Assembly: GCA_030668045.1 (NCBI GenBank)
Contig: DAOUUR010000032.1
Span: 1-11,557 of the forward strand
Direction: 5' to 3'
Source of the DNA: a bacterium
GTDB taxonomy: Bacteria; Zixibacteria; MSB-5A5; GN15; FEB-12
Length of the DNA: 11,557 nt
The first letter of the stretch is position 1. Every line of letters starts with the position of its first letter. Of the stretch, positions 6,338 through 11,557 are shown piece after piece. Made by a program: the position numbers and the translations under genes. The notes under the pieces are model-generated. The model was not told where the DNA came from, made no database searches, and saw only the letters and a list, made by a program, of their open reading frames with translations.

Positions 6338-6883
6338 ATGAAAAAGGTACTGCTGATAATTGTAGTTGGGGCATTTGCTGCAAGTACTGCCTTGGCCGGG
6401 CCGACTCTTCACGAGAAAACTTATGATCGGACCGAGATCAAGAAGGACAAGAAGGAGATCAACCAGACCAGGGCTACTTACGATCTTCTGTCGCATACTG
6501 TTGATCTATGGCACGATGCCAACCTCAAGGGGATCGGGGCAAGAATCGCAAAATATGACAAAGAGATCGTTGATATCGCCGACAATGACATCCGAACATC
6601 GGAGGCTCACCTGGCGCAATATCGAAGCGAAGTCGGTCGCTCTAAAGCTGAGGCCAACCAGCCCCATGTCGCGCGTATCGCCAAAGCTGATGACCGTTGG
6701 GACCTTAAGCAGGTGCGCACGATGACCCAGATCAAGCGGCGGTTGATCGATTCGTATGACAAGTCAGATCAGTTCTCAAATAAGTATCGTCTCATTAATG
6801 ACTACCTAGCCGTCCTCAAACGCGAGTTGAAATCCCATCAGGTGGAACTCGCCGACGATGTGCGGGAATTGCGAGAACATTAG
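6338..6883 (+). CDS. Small exported charged helical protein of unknown function
   Basis: I do not recognise a family. The 181 residues start with a clear signal peptide (KK, hydrophobic 4-16, cleavage after Ala20 in TALA-GP). The mature part is very rich in Lys, Arg, Asp and Glu, with no Cys and almost no Pro or Gly, and looks entirely helical. Segments near 30-45, 65-100 and 125-175 could form coiled coils. It could be a periplasmic spacer, chaperone or stress protein, but nothing proves a function. The start is well supported by AAGGAG (6324-6329) eight bases before the ATG. It stands 205 bases after the TPR gene, with no clear terminator or strong promoter seen between them, and is followed by a strong terminator. 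Confidence 0.85.
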   Translation: MKKVLLIIVVGAFAASTALAGPTLHEKTYDRTEIKKDKKEINQTRATYDLLSHTVDLWHDANLKGIGARIAKYDKEIVDIADNDIRTSEAHLAQYRSEVGRSKAEANQPHVARIAKADDRWDLKQVRTMTQIKRRLIDSYDKSDQFSNKYRLINDYLAVLKRELKSHQVELADDVRELREH

Positions 6884-6935
6884 CAAAGCGTGTATCTGCG
6901 GGTTGATTATTTTCTTGCGTGGCTCCTTTCGAGAC

Positions 6936-6967
6936 AACGTCGCCGCTTCGAAGCGGCGGCGTTTTTT
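6936..6967 (+). terminator. Strong intrinsic terminator after the helical protein gene
   Basis: CGTCGCCGCTTC (6938-6949) pairs with GAAGCGGCGGCG (6950-6961) with one T-G pair; the core GCCGCTTCGAAGCGGC is a perfect palindrome. TTTTTT (6962-6967) follows, and AA at 6936-6937 can pair with the first Ts. It begins about 50 bases after the stop codon at 6883. Confidence 0.93.
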
Positions 6968-7035
6968 GTTGCCCGATCCGGCCTTTCTCCTCATCCTTAG
7001 TGCCAGAAATACGGAATCATAAAGTTACTCGACTT

Positions 7036-8055
7036 ATGAAGAGAAAATTCGGACTGTGCCTGGCAACTATCGTTCTTGCCCTGGCGGTCTCTGCCGCCGG
7101 AGAGGGTGTGGGTACGCACGGCTTTCTCTATCTTGAATCAGGTAAAGAAACCGCCGATTTTGTAATCGACGGCAACATCAACCGGATATACCAGACGCCT
7201 TGCCTGTGTACACTATTGGTGGGGCAACACACTGTCAGGATATATAAGATGCACCGAGGGACGATTATTGACACCGTCACTATTCTTCCCGATGAAGTCC
7301 TGCGGAAAGTGGTCAACCTAATCGATGCTGATCCGCCGCGACCGGCCGGAGTGGAGGAACTTGAGTTCAAGCCGCGCTACGGTCAACTGACCATCCTGAC
7401 TGATCCCCCCGATGCGCTGGTATTCCTCGATGGTATCCGGATGCATCGCCGCACCCCGGTAACTCTGGAAAAGGTGGAAACAGGCCAACGGGCGGTGCGA
7501 GTTGCGGCCCGAAGCTTCACCTGGGAAGATACCGTCCTGATCCTCGTTGATTCGACCAAAGTCCTCAACCTAACATATGGTGACATCTCCGAGACCGATC
7601 TTGCCGAGCGTCGCGCCACTAAGGTTTCTATCCGGACAACGATTGAACTGCCCGGTTGTCAGTATCGACGTGACAACAACTCCGATGACAGGAACAACAA
7701 TGTCATGATCAGGGGGATTGATCCGTTTATCGATATTCTGTCGACCGACACTTCAATCCACCTGTCGCATCATCAACTGGCCAATTTCGAAGTTATCCGC
7801 GACGCTTCCGGTCAGGTTGTCACCAAGGAAATGCCCGATACATCAATCGTTGTCACTCTGGAGCAGTATGTTGACTCAATGGTCGTTTTCGATTTGAGCC
7901 TTTTCCCTAATCCTCTTCGCGGATTCACCAACCGCAACAATATCGATGGAACGACCCGACAGTATCAAGTACCGGCCAATCTTAACCGTGGCGAGCCGGT
8001 CGTAGTGCTGCTGAGAATCGATGCGACCGGAGAAGTTACTTTTCGCTACTACTAA
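7036..8055 (+). CDS. Exported PEGA-domain protein
   Basis: The 339-residue product has a signal peptide (KRK, hydrophobic 6-19, cleavage near Ala20-Ala21). Residues about 115-181 form a PEGA-type beta domain: YGQLTILTDPPDALVFLDG, then TPVTLEKVETGQRAVRV, the usual pattern of a strand, a PP turn, a V-x-hydrophobic-DG strand, a TP motif and G-x-x-x-V-x-V. Residues about 27-95 look like a second, diverged copy. The remaining 195-339 resemble no family I know: a polar Asn/Asp/Arg stretch at 211-226, then beta-rich sequence ending in FRYY. PEGA domains are common in surface and periplasmic proteins of FCB bacteria and are thought to mediate binding. The frame is open upstream to 6919, but that would run through the terminator, and only ATG 7036 gives a signal peptide. 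No clear ribosome site precedes it. The next gene belongs to a separately regulated operon. Confidence 0.82.
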   Translation: MKRKFGLCLATIVLALAVSAAGEGVGTHGFLYLESGKETADFVIDGNINRIYQTPCLCTLLVGQHTVRIYKMHRGTIIDTVTILPDEVLRKVVNLIDADPPRPAGVEELEFKPRYGQLTILTDPPDALVFLDGIRMHRRTPVTLEKVETGQRAVRVAARSFTWEDTVLILVDSTKVLNLTYGDISETDLAERRATKVSIRTTIELPGCQYRRDNNSDDRNNNVMIRGIDPFIDILSTDTSIHLSHHQLANFEVIRDASGQVVTKEMPDTSIVVTLEQYVDSMVVFDLSLFPNPLRGFTNRNNIDGTTRQYQVPANLNRGEPVVVLLRIDATGEVTFRYY

Positions 8056-8062
8056 AAACTGC

Positions 8063-8092
8063 TTGCGGTCCTCCACGTTTCAACCGTATTTT
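8063..8092 (+). promoter_or_regulatory. Possible promoter of the riboswitch-controlled operon
   Basis: TTGCGG (8063-8068) and TATTTT (8087-8092) are separated by 18 bases. The predicted start near 8099 lies about 15 bases before the first aptamer stem, the expected place. The hexamers are only moderate matches. Confidence 0.35.
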
Positions 8093-8113
8093 CCCTAAGA
8101 GACAGATAGCAGT

Positions 8114-8193
8114 TCCGTTGGGGGTGGCGTACTTTGCCGCCTGAGATCATACCCCCCTACCTGATCCGGTTAATACCGGCGTAGGGAAACGGA
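8114..8193 (+). promoter_or_regulatory. TPP riboswitch (THI element)
   Basis: All core parts are visible. P1 is TCCGTT (8114-8119) with AACGGA (8188-8193). P2 is GGGGGT (8120-8125) with ACCCCC (8151-8156). P3 is GGCG (8126-8129) with CGCC (8138-8141), followed by the invariant CTGAGA (8141-8146) that binds the pyrimidine ring. P4 is CTAC (8157-8160) with GTAG (8181-8184), P5 is CCGG (8166-8169) with CCGG (8176-8179), and the conserved CTGAT, TAATACCGGCG and AGGGAA segments contact the diphosphate side. In known cases TPP binding lowers expression of thiamin synthesis or uptake genes. The start codon of the TonB receptor lies 96 bases further on. No stem followed by a T run is seen before it, so control of translation is more likely than termination. 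Confidence 0.96.
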
Positions 8194-8262
8194 GATTGCA
8201 GCCGGGTTACACCTGTTCTTTTTGGATGTATCCGACTCTATCAAAACGGAACCCTGTGAACT

Positions 8263-8299
8263 ATGAAACTGTAACGAGAGGTTACGGCCATGAAACTGT
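8263..8299 (+). repeat. Duplicated start-codon segment and ribosome-site hairpin
   Basis: ATGAAACTGT occurs at 8263-8272 and again at 8290-8299, 27 bases apart. The second copy is the real start of the receptor; the first reads Met-Lys-Leu-stop. Between them CTGTAAC (8269-8275) can pair with GTTACGG (8281-8287), leaving GAGAG of the ribosome site GAGAGG (8276-8281) in the loop. Confidence 0.6.
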
Positions 8300-10803
8300 T
8301 TGGTATTGCCCTAATCGTTGTGGCGTTCTGTGCGCTGTCGAGCCGGGCTACGTCGCTCGCGGGAAAAGTAGTCGATCGCAACAACGCACCGCTGGAGAGT
8401 GTTTCGATTGTAACTGATGTTCACGGAGTTGGAGCCCAGAGCGACAGCGTCGGCATTTTTCATCTTACTACGAATGAGCCGATAACGCGCGTGACTTTTT
8501 CATCGATCGGATACAGGGCCATCCAATATAAGGCAGACGAAGTTCCCGAAGTTGTCATGCTCGAACGATCGTATTTTCGCGGCACTGATATTGTCGTCCA
8601 CGCCAGTCGAGCAGAGAAAGGTCTGGCTTCAATCGCATTCGACGATCTTTCACGAGCCGAGATTGAACGCGACTACACGGTCGGTGAATTCCCACTACTT
8701 CTAAAGACAACTCCCAACGTTTTCACCTATGCCGAAGCCGGCTCTCCACTGGGTGCAACGTCGGTGAGGATTCGGGGCTTTGACGACCGCCGGGTGGTAA
8801 CCTATATCAATGGCGTGCCGCTGAACGATCCGGAAGACCAGAGCACGTACTTTGTTGATCTGCCCGACTTCGCTGCCAACATAGCCGATGTCCAGGTGCA
8901 GCGCGGCGTTGGTAATTCGTTGTACGGTGACGCATCGTTCGGCGGCACCGTCAATGTCATCACCAAAACACTTGACACCAAACGCAAAGCTGTTCTCACC
9001 GCCGGGTATGGCGGCTTTACGTCAGACGGTGATGTCGTCTCTGATGTCTATAAGCGAAGTTTCGAATTCGCATCGGGTCTTGTTGACGGACGCTGGGCCT
9101 TCGCCGGACGTTTTTCAAAACAGAAGAGTGCCGGATACCGACACAACAGTTGGTACGATGGCTGGGCGTACTACCTCTCGGCAACACGGCTCGACCCTCG
9201 CATGACAACCGAAATTCACCTCTATGGCGGACCGATAAGATACCATGCCGCCTGGTACGGAGCATCTCGAAGTGAAATTTCAAAGGATCGGCGAACCAAT
9301 GTCGGCATTCCCGGCTATGATGAACTGAATTACAAAAACGCCACAGACAACTTCAGCCAGCCGCACTACCAATTGCACCATACTTTCAGGATCAACGACA
9401 GAAGCACACTCTACAACACATTCTATTACATTCAAGGAACCGGCTACTATGAGCAGTTCCGTCCGTACAGCGACTATGTGGAATACAATATCGATCCGAT
9501 ACACACCGACGGTGCGAACAGTGGCGATGTTGTTCGTCAAAAATGGGTAGAGAAACGACAGTACGGATGGAACGCTCGAATCGACCACGACCACAAAAAA
9601 GGCACTCACACCCTGGGCGGCTCCCTCTACAATTTCCAGTCGCACCACTGGGGACAGGTGGTCTGGGCGCAGCATATCACCGGGGACCTCAATCCAAGGC
9701 ATCGTTACTACGAGTACCACGGCAAGAAATGGGTCGGCTCAATATATGCTCAGGAACGATATGAATTCACCGATAGGCTATCAACGCAGTTGACCGCCCA
9801 GTTGCGCTTCCAGCATTACTCGTTTGATCAGACGGTGCTGGGGGCATTTGTCGGTTACGATTACACCGTTGACTGGCTTTTCTTCTCGCCACGAATCGGT
9901 CTGCACTTTGCTGCCACCGAACGTCTTGGCATCTATGGAAATCTCTCGGTAGCTTCGCGTGTTCCGACCGACGATGCTATCTACAACGCCGATGACCCCG
10001 ATGCCCTCCCCGCTCTGGCCCGGACCGACTCAACCCTGATAGAGCCGGGACGATACGATTACACTTTCGGTGACCCGACCGTCAAGTCCGAACGTCTGTA
10101 CGATCTGGAGCTTGGCTGCCAGTACGATGCGCCCCGGATTGCTCTCTCGGCCAATCTTTTCTGGATGAAATTTAAGGATATGATCGTTGCCGAGGGAGGA
10201 GTCTCTGATGGAATTGAGAATACGCTCAACGTCAACGGCGCCGTACATGCCGGTGTTGAATTGGCCGCAACGTTCCGTCCCGTTGACGCCTTGACACTGG
10301 ATGCAAATATCGCTCTCAACCGAAATCGCATTACTGATTTTGTTCATGTCATCAGCTATGATTTCGATACAACCGGCGCGCCCTCCAGTGAAGAGGCGAC
10401 CAGTGTTGATCTCAGCGGCAAGACGGTCAGTCGCTTCCCGGTCTATCTCGGCAACTTGATGGCTGACTTCCAGAACGGTGCCGTGCGTCTCACCTGGCGG
10501 AGTCGGTTTATCGGTCGGCAATACGCTGACCTTCACAATATCGAAAGTGAATCGATTGACCCCGTTTCGGTTTCGTCGTTGTCGGCAGCGGTCACTATTA
10601 ATGCTCTGTCCTCTATAGGCCGACTGACTCTCTCGGCAACAGTTGATAACCTGTTTGACAGGAAATACGAATCAGCCGTCGCCTACGCCGAAAACTACGC
10701 CTACCGAAACGCCAACGAAAGCGCCGCAGTAGGGGCATGGTCAACTTATTTCGTTGCGCCAGAGCGTTCGTTCTTTATTCAAGCACAATTGGAGGCCTTC
10801 TAA
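8290..10803 (+). CDS. TonB-dependent outer-membrane receptor, predicted to take up thiamin or a thiamin-related compound
   Basis: The 837-residue protein should import a scarce ligand across the outer membrane using TonB-ExbBD energy. In order: a signal peptide (1 to about 22); a carboxypeptidase-regulatory-like beta domain (about 24-92; LAGKVVDRNNAPLESVSI, then SSIGYR), typical of FCB receptors; a TonB-box-like TDIVVHA (99-105); the plug (about 118-227), with SVRIRGFDDRRVVTYINGVPL (158-178) and QRGVGNSLYGDASFGGTVNVI (204-224); and a beta-barrel (about 230-837) rich in Tyr and Trp, ending in the C-terminal Phe usual for outer-membrane beta-barrels. ATG 8290 has GAGAGG eight bases upstream. 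The ligand is inferred from the TPP riboswitch directly upstream and the permease gene behind it; similar TPP-riboswitch-controlled receptors (called OMR1 or OMthi) are described in Bacteroidetes. Pyrimidine or thiazole precursors, or TPP itself, remain possible. Confidence 0.93.
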   Translation: MKLFGIALIVVAFCALSSRATSLAGKVVDRNNAPLESVSIVTDVHGVGAQSDSVGIFHLTTNEPITRVTFSSIGYRAIQYKADEVPEVVMLERSYFRGTDIVVHASRAEKGLASIAFDDLSRAEIERDYTVGEFPLLLKTTPNVFTYAEAGSPLGATSVRIRGFDDRRVVTYINGVPLNDPEDQSTYFVDLPDFAANIADVQVQRGVGNSLYGDASFGGTVNVITKTLDTKRKAVLTAGYGGFTSDGDVVSDVYKRSFEFASGLVDGRWAFAGRFSKQKSAGYRHNSWYDGWAYYLSATRLDPRMTTEIHLYGGPIRYHAAWYGASRSEISKDRRTNVGIPGYDELNYKNATDNFSQPHYQLHHTFRINDRSTLYNTFYYIQGTGYYEQFRPYSDYVEYNIDPIHTDGANSGDVVRQKWVEKRQYGWNARIDHDHKKGTHTLGGSLYNFQSHHWGQVVWAQHITGDLNPRHRYYEYHGKKWVGSIYAQERYEFTDRLSTQLTAQLRFQHYSFDQTVLGAFVGYDYTVDWLFFSPRIGLHFAATERLGIYGNLSVASRVPTDDAIYNADDPDALPALARTDSTLIEPGRYDYTFGDPTVKSERLYDLELGCQYDAPRIALSANLFWMKFKDMIVAEGGVSDGIENTLNVNGAVHAGVELAATFRPVDALTLDANIALNRNRITDFVHVISYDFDTTGAPSSEEATSVDLSGKTVSRFPVYLGNLMADFQNGAVRLTWRSRFIGRQYADLHNIESESIDPVSVSSLSAAVTINALSSIGRLTLSATVDNLFDRKYESAVAYAENYAYRNANESAAVGAWSTYFVAPERSFFIQAQLEAF

Positions 10804-10837
10804 CAGGCTACGCCTGCCTTAACTGCTACGCCTGTTA
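10801..10837. repeat. Intercistronic inverted and tandem repeat between receptor and permease
   Basis: TAACAGGC (10801-10808, including the receptor stop codon) is the exact reverse complement of GCCTGTTA (10830-10837). Inside, GCTACGCCTG occurs twice (10807-10816 and 10825-10834), 18 bases apart. CAGGC (10804-10808) can also pair with GCCTG (10812-10816). No proper T run follows, so it is not a convincing full terminator. A stability or partial read-through element is possible. Confidence 0.55.
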
Positions 10838-10854
10838 TACTTGCTTTGTCCACC

Positions 10855-11557
10855 ATGCCTGCTCTTGACTACGCCATAATCGTTCTGTATCTCGGTGGGC
10901 TACTCTATCTCGGACTCAGGTACCGTCTCAAGAAAGACAGCACTGCATCGGAGTTAATTGTTGGCGGACGCATGCTCACCCTTCCGGCATTTATCGCTTC
11001 GCTTGTCTCAACCTGGTACGGCGGTATCCTCGGTGTCGGCGAGTACAGCTACAGTTATGGTTTGTCCAACTGGCTTGTGTTTGGTCTGCCCTATTACCTG
11101 GCGGCGCTATTGTTCGCTCTGTTTCTGGCAAAGAAGGCTCGTCAGTCGGAAGTGTTGACTATCCCGGAACGGTTGACTCAAGCGTACGACAACAAGACCG
11201 GTCTGGCGGGAGCGGCGATCATATTCTTAATGACCGTCCCCGCCGCCTATGTCTTGATGCTTGGTGTCCTGTGTGAATTTCTATTCGGGTGGCCGCTCTG
11301 GGTCGGGACACTGGCCGGGACGCTTTTTTCGATTGTCTATGTTTTCCTCGGTGGGTTTCGGTCGGTGGTGCGAACCGATCTATTGCAATTCGCATTGATG
11401 TTTCTCGGCTTTGCTGTTTTGCTGATCTTTCTTGTGATCGATTATGGTGGTCTGCCTTTCCTGTTAGAGCGGGTCCCGGAGAACCACTTCACCTGGCACG
11501 GAGGAAAAACCGCGATCTATATCGGCGTGTGGTACTTCATTGCCCTGGCCACTCTTA
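10855..11557 (+). CDS. Sodium:solute symporter (SSS) family permease, C-terminus outside the window; possible thiamin transporter
   Basis: Only the first 234 residues are inside the window; the family usually has about 450-550. Membrane segments by eye lie near 4-22, 42-60, 73-92, 117-140, 144-165, 176-195 and 221-234. SSS hallmarks are SELIVGGRMLTLP (32-44), an STWYGGILGVGEYSYSYGL segment (52-70) in the place of the ion-binding first core helix, and GGFRSVVRTDLLQ (166-178), the family's GGxxAVxxTDxxQ motif. The ATG follows the receptor stop by 51 bases with no clear ribosome site, so translation may be coupled or inefficient. Co-transcription behind a TPP riboswitch makes thiamin or a precursor the probable substrate; predicted thiamin symporters of this superfamily (ThiV) are known from comparative genomics. 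Sequence alone does not show the substrate, since the family also carries sugars, amino acids, pantothenate and others. Confidence 0.88.
   Translation, partial: MPALDYAIIVLYLGGLLYLGLRYRLKKDSTASELIVGGRMLTLPAFIASLVSTWYGGILGVGEYSYSYGLSNWLVFGLPYYLAALLFALFLAKKARQSEVLTIPERLTQAYDNKTGLAGAAIIFLMTVPAAYVLMLGVLCEFLFGWPLWVGTLAGTLFSIVYVFLGGFRSVVRTDLLQFALMFLGFAVLLIFLVIDYGGLPFLLERVPENHFTWHGGKTAIYIGVWYFIALATL

Follow-up and report, generated by a model that had tools for sequence, protein, structure and literature searches.

Among the described systems closest to the locus reported here is thiamin (vitamin B1) uptake in Bacteroides thetaiotaomicron, for which the available part of the published account (PMC5613172) states that, in cells without synthesis genes, loss of the outer-membrane receptor OMthi (BT2390) or of pnuT raised the amount of thiamin needed about tenfold. 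In Caldithrix abyssi, the available text of the 2017 report (PMC5317091) assigns to thiamin a locus, Cabys_3975-3977, composed of a thiamin pyrophosphate (TPP) riboswitch, a TonB-dependent receptor called highly similar to BT2390, a sodium-solute symporter and a kinase. We analysed an 11,557-nucleotide stretch of DNA (the window) that constitutes the entire contig C572 of a draft genome (G000; 3.03 Mb in 622 contigs, 93.85% complete) and has its nearest named relatives in Candidatus Zixiibacteriota. The window contains a TPP riboswitch ahead of a TonB-dependent receptor gene and a gene of the sodium:solute symporter (SSS) family (Table 1), and our analysis confirmed that this arrangement is real. 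We consider it very probable that the operon serves the import of thiamin under feedback control.

The riboswitch aptamer was matched over its full length by the Rfam model RF00059 (model positions 1–105 of 105, expectation value (E) 2.3e-12) in a covariance search, and it is the sole match to this model in the genome. The original prediction, which had called a complete TPP aptamer before the receptor, was therefore correct on this point. Across 61 genomes, comprising that of the window and 60 relatives from its genus, family and order, a riboswitch match was identified in 55. The receptor gene followed the riboswitch in 29 of the 30 relatives' loci that were fetched, and in the thirtieth (L022) the riboswitch is located at the contig end. 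The six genomes without a match among the 61 were G002, G023, G027, G044, G047 and G059. One of these, G027 (91% complete, 1% contaminated), gave no match to the TPP riboswitch, the symporter or thiamin pyrophosphokinase, which corresponds either to an assembly effect or to a family member without the uptake route. In the family designated f2, six of seven genomes (G040, G043, G046, G049, G051 and G053) carry two tandem TPP riboswitch matches, 56–192 bases apart, with the presence of the receptor behind them checked in two (L013 and L017). Two matches were also found in G015, on separate contigs.

The receptor contains the TonB barrel (PF00593, 3.4e-31) and Plug (PF07715, 7.2e-14) domains, both over their cut-offs, whereas a carboxypeptidase-regulatory-like domain at its N-terminus (3.5e-7) falls below its own. 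Its association with the riboswitch extends to several phyla, Gemmatimonadota included: among the best 80 of 104 confirmed loci of receptor relatives, a TPP riboswitch is located upstream on the same strand in 74. The covariance model used for this search was built from 20 riboswitches, six of them rows from these same loci; Rfam's own model, run at its cut-off on 11 loci, recovered the riboswitch in 10 and missed L101. Six of the best 80 loci remained without a match: L051 and L056, whose sequences start within the receptor gene, as well as L070, L073, L101 and L108. A quick phylogeny comprising 49 receptors (25 from alignment A2 and 24 others chosen by hand) places the window's receptor inside a Zixiibacteriota group with Calditrichota adjoining, the whole supported at 99% by the Shimodaira–Hasegawa-like approximate likelihood ratio test, and Gemmatimonadota and Bacteroidota fall opposite. 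That relatives in other phyla carry the same riboswitch speaks in favour of the original prediction.

The wider receptor family is more varied in its partners. L082 (Prevotellaceae), the one Bacteroidota receptor with a riboswitch among those fetched, forms a long branch in the tree and has a PF04973 permease as its partner, which resembles the Bacteroides arrangement. No SSS match was found among the open reading frames (ORFs) of the Gemmatimonadota receptor loci, and PnuC-like ORFs were located near the receptor in five of 40 of these by clustering, one of them being tested against Pfam. Two Niastella receptors without a TPP riboswitch, in L101 and, as judged by clustering, in L108, stand before PnuC and a NadR-like gene; in L101 the latter was identified by profile, below the NadR cut-offs. 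These loci are likely nicotinamide riboside systems, and this compound is therefore probably a further cargo within the wider receptor family. Two contigs have titles that differ from the placement of their receptors: L048, titled Calditrichaeota, encodes a Zixiibacteriota-like receptor with 57% identity to that of the window, and the receptor of L049, titled Ignavibacterium, is nested in the Zixiibacteriota group of the tree. Mis-binning of these contigs or transfer of the genes may account for this.

The SSS gene starts 51 bases after the receptor stop codon, at an ATG that is common to the relatives in alignment A1; the ORF list places the start at a TTG at 10846. These matches bear out the prediction of a TonB-dependent receptor followed on the same strand by an SSS permease. 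The remainder of the symporter (model positions 247–459) corresponds to C166:1-639 in the same genome. C572 and C166 were left unjoined, with about 12 symporter model positions falling between them, and the symporter is followed on C166 by greA.

In 45 of the 61 genomes the symporter gene is located on the same strand as the riboswitch, 2,440–3,058 bases downstream. The symporter profile matched at E 1e-40 or better in 56 of the 61, with no match at this threshold in G002, G027, G051, G057 and G059; the single match in G060 scores 144 bits, much as the more distant SSS proteins do in other genomes. The riboswitch contigs of G007, G022, G036, G049, G051, G054 and G060 end within or near the end of the receptor gene, as judged from coordinates without each being inspected. 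Among the 35 Zixiibacteriota- and Calditrichota-type receptor loci (L034–L068, from the best 80), the symporter is present in 29 and a greA-type gene in 14; L041, L048, L061 and L068 end too early to show a symporter. In two Calditrichota loci (L062 and L063) and an unclassified one (L065), all with the riboswitch, a thiamin pyrophosphokinase gene lies between the receptor and the symporter (TIGR01378 scores of 122.8, 131.8 and 90.6 bits, respectively; cut-off 76.4).

ThiE joins 4-amino-5-hydroxymethyl-2-methylpyrimidine (HMP) to thiazole, so that without this enzyme HMP and thiazole are unusable, whereas thiamin pyrophosphokinase lets a cell use thiamin itself. The 61 genomes contained no match to ThiC (control genomes 13/14), to ThiE/TenI (PF02581; control 11/14) or to PnuC/PnuT (PF04973; control 5/14). 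No ThiB was found over the cut-off in any of them (control 4/14), with one match below it in G028 (19.1 bits); ThiT, YkoE and ThiXYZ were not searched for. ThiL was also absent over the cut-off (control 9/14), and a ThiL route was rejected because 60 of the 61 genomes gave sub-cut-off matches yet none exceeded the cut-off. Thiamin pyrophosphokinase was identified in 50 of the 61 genomes (over the cut-off in 6/14 controls), and an alignment search of the 11 misses recovered one further fragment, in G028. Because ThiC, ThiE, PnuC/PnuT and ThiB over the cut-off are lacking throughout and the kinase is present in most genomes, intact thiamin is the likely substrate. In line with the original prediction, the order's genomes are equipped to use salvaged thiamin, and they show no route for its synthesis; the SSS permease does stand in the place that PnuT occupies in Bacteroidota. 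Of the two cargoes then proposed, thiamin or a precursor, thiamin is supported and the HMP precursor disfavoured.

From this organisation we infer a route in which the receptor, energised by TonB, would take thiamin through the outer membrane and the SSS symporter would move it across the inner membrane together with sodium. A thiamin pyrophosphokinase encoded elsewhere would then convert thiamin to TPP, which would bind the riboswitch and turn the operon down.

The model of the symporter from a relative's locus (L035) has a predicted local distance difference test score of 91 and adopts the SSS fold; against solved SSS proteins its query-normalised template modelling scores reach 0.85. S317 is present in 22 of the 22 symporter rows that reach this position and T/S318 likewise in 22 of 22; we take this Ser/Thr pair to belong to the Na2 site of SSS symporters, and the window contig stops before it. 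By sequence profile the nearest solved relatives are choline transporters, which are also the best but not the sole structural match, other CHT1 entries scoring no higher than SiaT. Conserved acidic and aromatic residues of the symporter family occupy places of the choline pocket. We tentatively hypothesise that the symporter founds a separate SSS branch specific to thiamin and distinct from ThiV of SAR11, with a choline-transporter-like pocket made of half a cation–pi cage and E/D236. In such a pocket W54 and Y80, with W375 as a lid, would hold the quaternary thiazolium, and the conserved E/D236, in place of CHT1 Trp254, would read the rest of thiamin. If this is true, an entire order within Zixiibacteriota would live on external vitamin B1 via this one route. 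The ThiV Tyr at SiaT position 78 is aligned with F or L (20 and 3 of 23 rows) and the ThiV Asp at SiaT position 139 with V or I (12 and 11 of 23), both read by hand from a weak pairwise alignment (E 3.4e-5), which around the ThiV Phe at SiaT position 254 is too loose to locate that residue.

The leaders of the operon suggest how the riboswitch could act. The motif ACGGAA, complementary to the 5' strand of the P1 helix and contained in the leader element of the window (Table 1), is present in 28 of the 54 distinct leaders from relatives, mostly 51–62 nucleotides past the aptamer. According to fold predictions, this element folds over the ribosome-binding site as a hairpin in 23 of the 25 parsed leaders. 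The script scored 21 of 25, and reading of the folds added L008 and L045, in which it had taken a later GAGG; the two leaders outside the count are L011, a parsing error, and that of the window. Three ACGGAA leaders without a start codon (L048, L060 and L044) were dropped. The two sides of the hairpin are nearly invariant among the aligned leaders, with no covariation shown and no pair count run, and the row of the window in this alignment is shorter than its full leader. In the presence of TPP, P1 would form, leaving the ACGGAA element free and the ribosome-binding site hidden; in its absence, the element would pair with the 5' strand of P1. Control in leaders of this type is probably translational.

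The window's own leader differs from this pattern, as the ribosome-site hairpin of its relatives is absent from the fold prediction although the 8-base complement is present. Forcing either P1 or the alternative helix made no difference to how open the ribosome-binding site is predicted to be, so that the model above does not account for the switch in this species. The whole leader of the window folds no better than shuffled sequences (z -1.09). We do not claim a transcription terminator in it, the candidate being just a weak stem of five pairs (-3.1 kcal/mol). Of the 23 leaders scanned, six (L053, L050, L067, L055, L062 and L063) instead show hairpins of a strong, terminator-like kind, at -14.4 to -18.7 kcal/mol. 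The expression platform, terminator-like or ribosome-site hairpin, differs between groups that have the aptamer and genes in common.

Table 1. Features of the riboswitch operon and the preceding gene in the window (aa, amino acids).
Feature	Position	Strand	Remark
TPP riboswitch aptamer (RF00059)	8110-8204	+	cmscan 69.6 bits vs gathering score 54.3
P1 helix 5' strand (8114-8119) and two flanking bases	8112-8119	+	exact reverse complement of 8245-8252
Leader element that could compete with the aptamer's own 3' strand for the P1 5' strand	8245-8252	+	predicted pairing
Putative receptor ribosome-binding site	8276-8281	+	largely within the loop of a local hairpin predicted at 8271-8285
TonB-dependent outer-membrane receptor, 837 aa, predicted thiamin receptor (OMR1/OMthi type)	8290-10803	+	
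SSS-family sodium:solute symporter, N-terminal 234 residues, cut at contig end	10855-11557	+	PF00474 8.2e-16
PEGA-domain gene	6919-8055		stop 54 bases before the aptamer

Outside the operon, an ORF of 181 residues at 6338-6883 is without a Pfam or NCBIfam match; an ORF that resembles it by eye is located in the same gene order at L127:9032-9598. A plasmid search returned 132 records, all below 60% identity, with no thiamin label among the 25 listed.

Several observations weigh against the assignment of the operon to thiamin import. In G014 and G018 the symporter is located on another contig, with other genes behind the receptor and no second riboswitch matched. G051 (97% complete) and G057 (83%) have the riboswitch and no symporter over the threshold, G057 encoding a receptor ORF of 712 residues followed by other ORFs. 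Loci L037 and L047 likewise have other ORFs and no symporter behind the receptor, and four of the 80 receptor loci have full upstream sequence and no TPP riboswitch match. No kinase was found in G000, G001 or G002, the window's genome and its two genus mates, which are all three genomes of the genus, and G000 shows neither the kinase nor the gene that usually precedes it. ThiL-like near misses in G031 and G055 (162.8 and 157.4 bits; cut-off 184.15) may be real ThiL relatives. Furthermore, the available part of the B. thetaiotaomicron account (PMC5613172) describes OMthi and pnuT transcripts, next to TPP riboswitches, that changed little with thiamin, on which basis the off-switch proposed here may be weak or translational.

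The unlinked symporters of G014 and G018 would fit a reading in which the receptor imports thiamin whereas the adjacent SSS gene encodes a transporter for something else, such as proline or pantothenate. The PanF and PutP subfamily models, to which the symporter scores far below the cut-offs, mean that the family itself names no substrate. However, we regard this reading as unlikely, given that the link is kept in 45 of the 61 genomes and that seven of the 10 other riboswitch genomes have it on contigs that, by their coordinates, end too early. The symporter also follows receptor and kinase in L062, L063 and L065, and neither PnuC/PnuT nor ThiB, the other inner-membrane thiamin importers covered by the searches, was found over its cut-off.

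The lack of a kinase in all three genomes of the genus, together with the sub-cut-off ThiL-like matches, could be accounted for if the operon imported thiamin phosphates (thiamin monophosphate or TPP) directly, a possibility that we judge to be slight. The kinase is present in 50 of the 61 genomes, and the acidic and aromatic residues at the choline-pocket places would suit a cation over a diphosphate. The gap also coincides with contig ends in G001 and G012. In the eight kinase loci examined among relatives (L130–L136 and L119), the same gene family is found beside the kinase in seven and a second family in six, the single tested member of the latter (L131) being a transketolase, a TPP enzyme, which favours the thiamin reading. 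In G001 and G012 the gene found ahead of the kinase in relatives reaches the end of its contig, and their kinase could therefore lie just past it. Kinase loss as a sign of TPP uptake was set aside on this ground; its lack in the genus probably reflects an assembly gap, the simpler reading.

Import of HMP, with thiamin finished inside the cell, recalls the HMP transporter proposed for SAR11, an SSS protein under a TPP riboswitch in the available text (PMC11452348), and is very improbable here because ThiE, required for HMP use, was found in 0 of 61 genomes against 11 of 14 controls, the kinase that acts on finished thiamin is present in 50 of 61 and inside three related operons, and the ThiV signature positions do not match as far as the weak alignment places them.

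The original interpretation as a whole is supported, with thiamin import the preferred reading. It gives a likely function to two genes that are conserved in an order represented here mainly by metagenome-assembled genomes. The members of this order are predicted to depend on neighbours for vitamin B1, which would be useful for cultivation. We found no paper on thiamin uptake or vitamin auxotrophy in Zixibacteria or Zixiibacteriota, judged by title or the start of the abstract.

Compared with known systems, the window's locus is similar to the OMthi/PnuT-Tnr3 system of B. thetaiotaomicron as given in the available part of its account (PMC5613172), in which a riboswitch-linked TonB receptor, an inner-membrane permease and a kinase constitute a two-membrane route. 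The permease there is PnuT, whereas PF04973 was found in none of the 61 genomes here, and B. thetaiotaomicron itself also makes thiamin. SAR11 ThiV is likewise an SSS-family symporter with a TPP riboswitch upstream; the available text (PMC11452348) proposes HMP as its substrate and describes no outer-membrane receptor as partner. The closest known systems also include the CHT-type choline symporters (SLC5A7/CHT1) in the available parts of PMC11589582 and PMC13220886, with two of the four residues of their aromatic cage (W62, Y91, W141 and W254) having aligned counterparts in our symporter. The C. abyssi locus has in common with that of the window the riboswitch upstream of a TonB receptor, the sodium-solute symporter and the proposed transport of thiamin, and thiamin synthesis is incomplete in that organism as well, according to the available text (PMC5317091). 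It differs in holding the kinase, whereas the window's locus has greA after the symporter and its relatives encode the kinase elsewhere. The less usual pairing that the original prediction had pointed out, an SSS permease in place of PnuT, thus stands, although it had already been described in C. abyssi. The locus is a well-supported further example of that arrangement, not a new kind of system. Our analysis adds that the operon is conserved across an order whose genomes consistently show neither a route for thiamin synthesis nor PnuT, that its receptor is linked to those of Gemmatimonadota, and a proposed model of the pocket. Together these turn a single-genome remark on C. abyssi into a comparative case for an SSS symporter replacing PnuT as the inner-membrane partner of a thiamin receptor.

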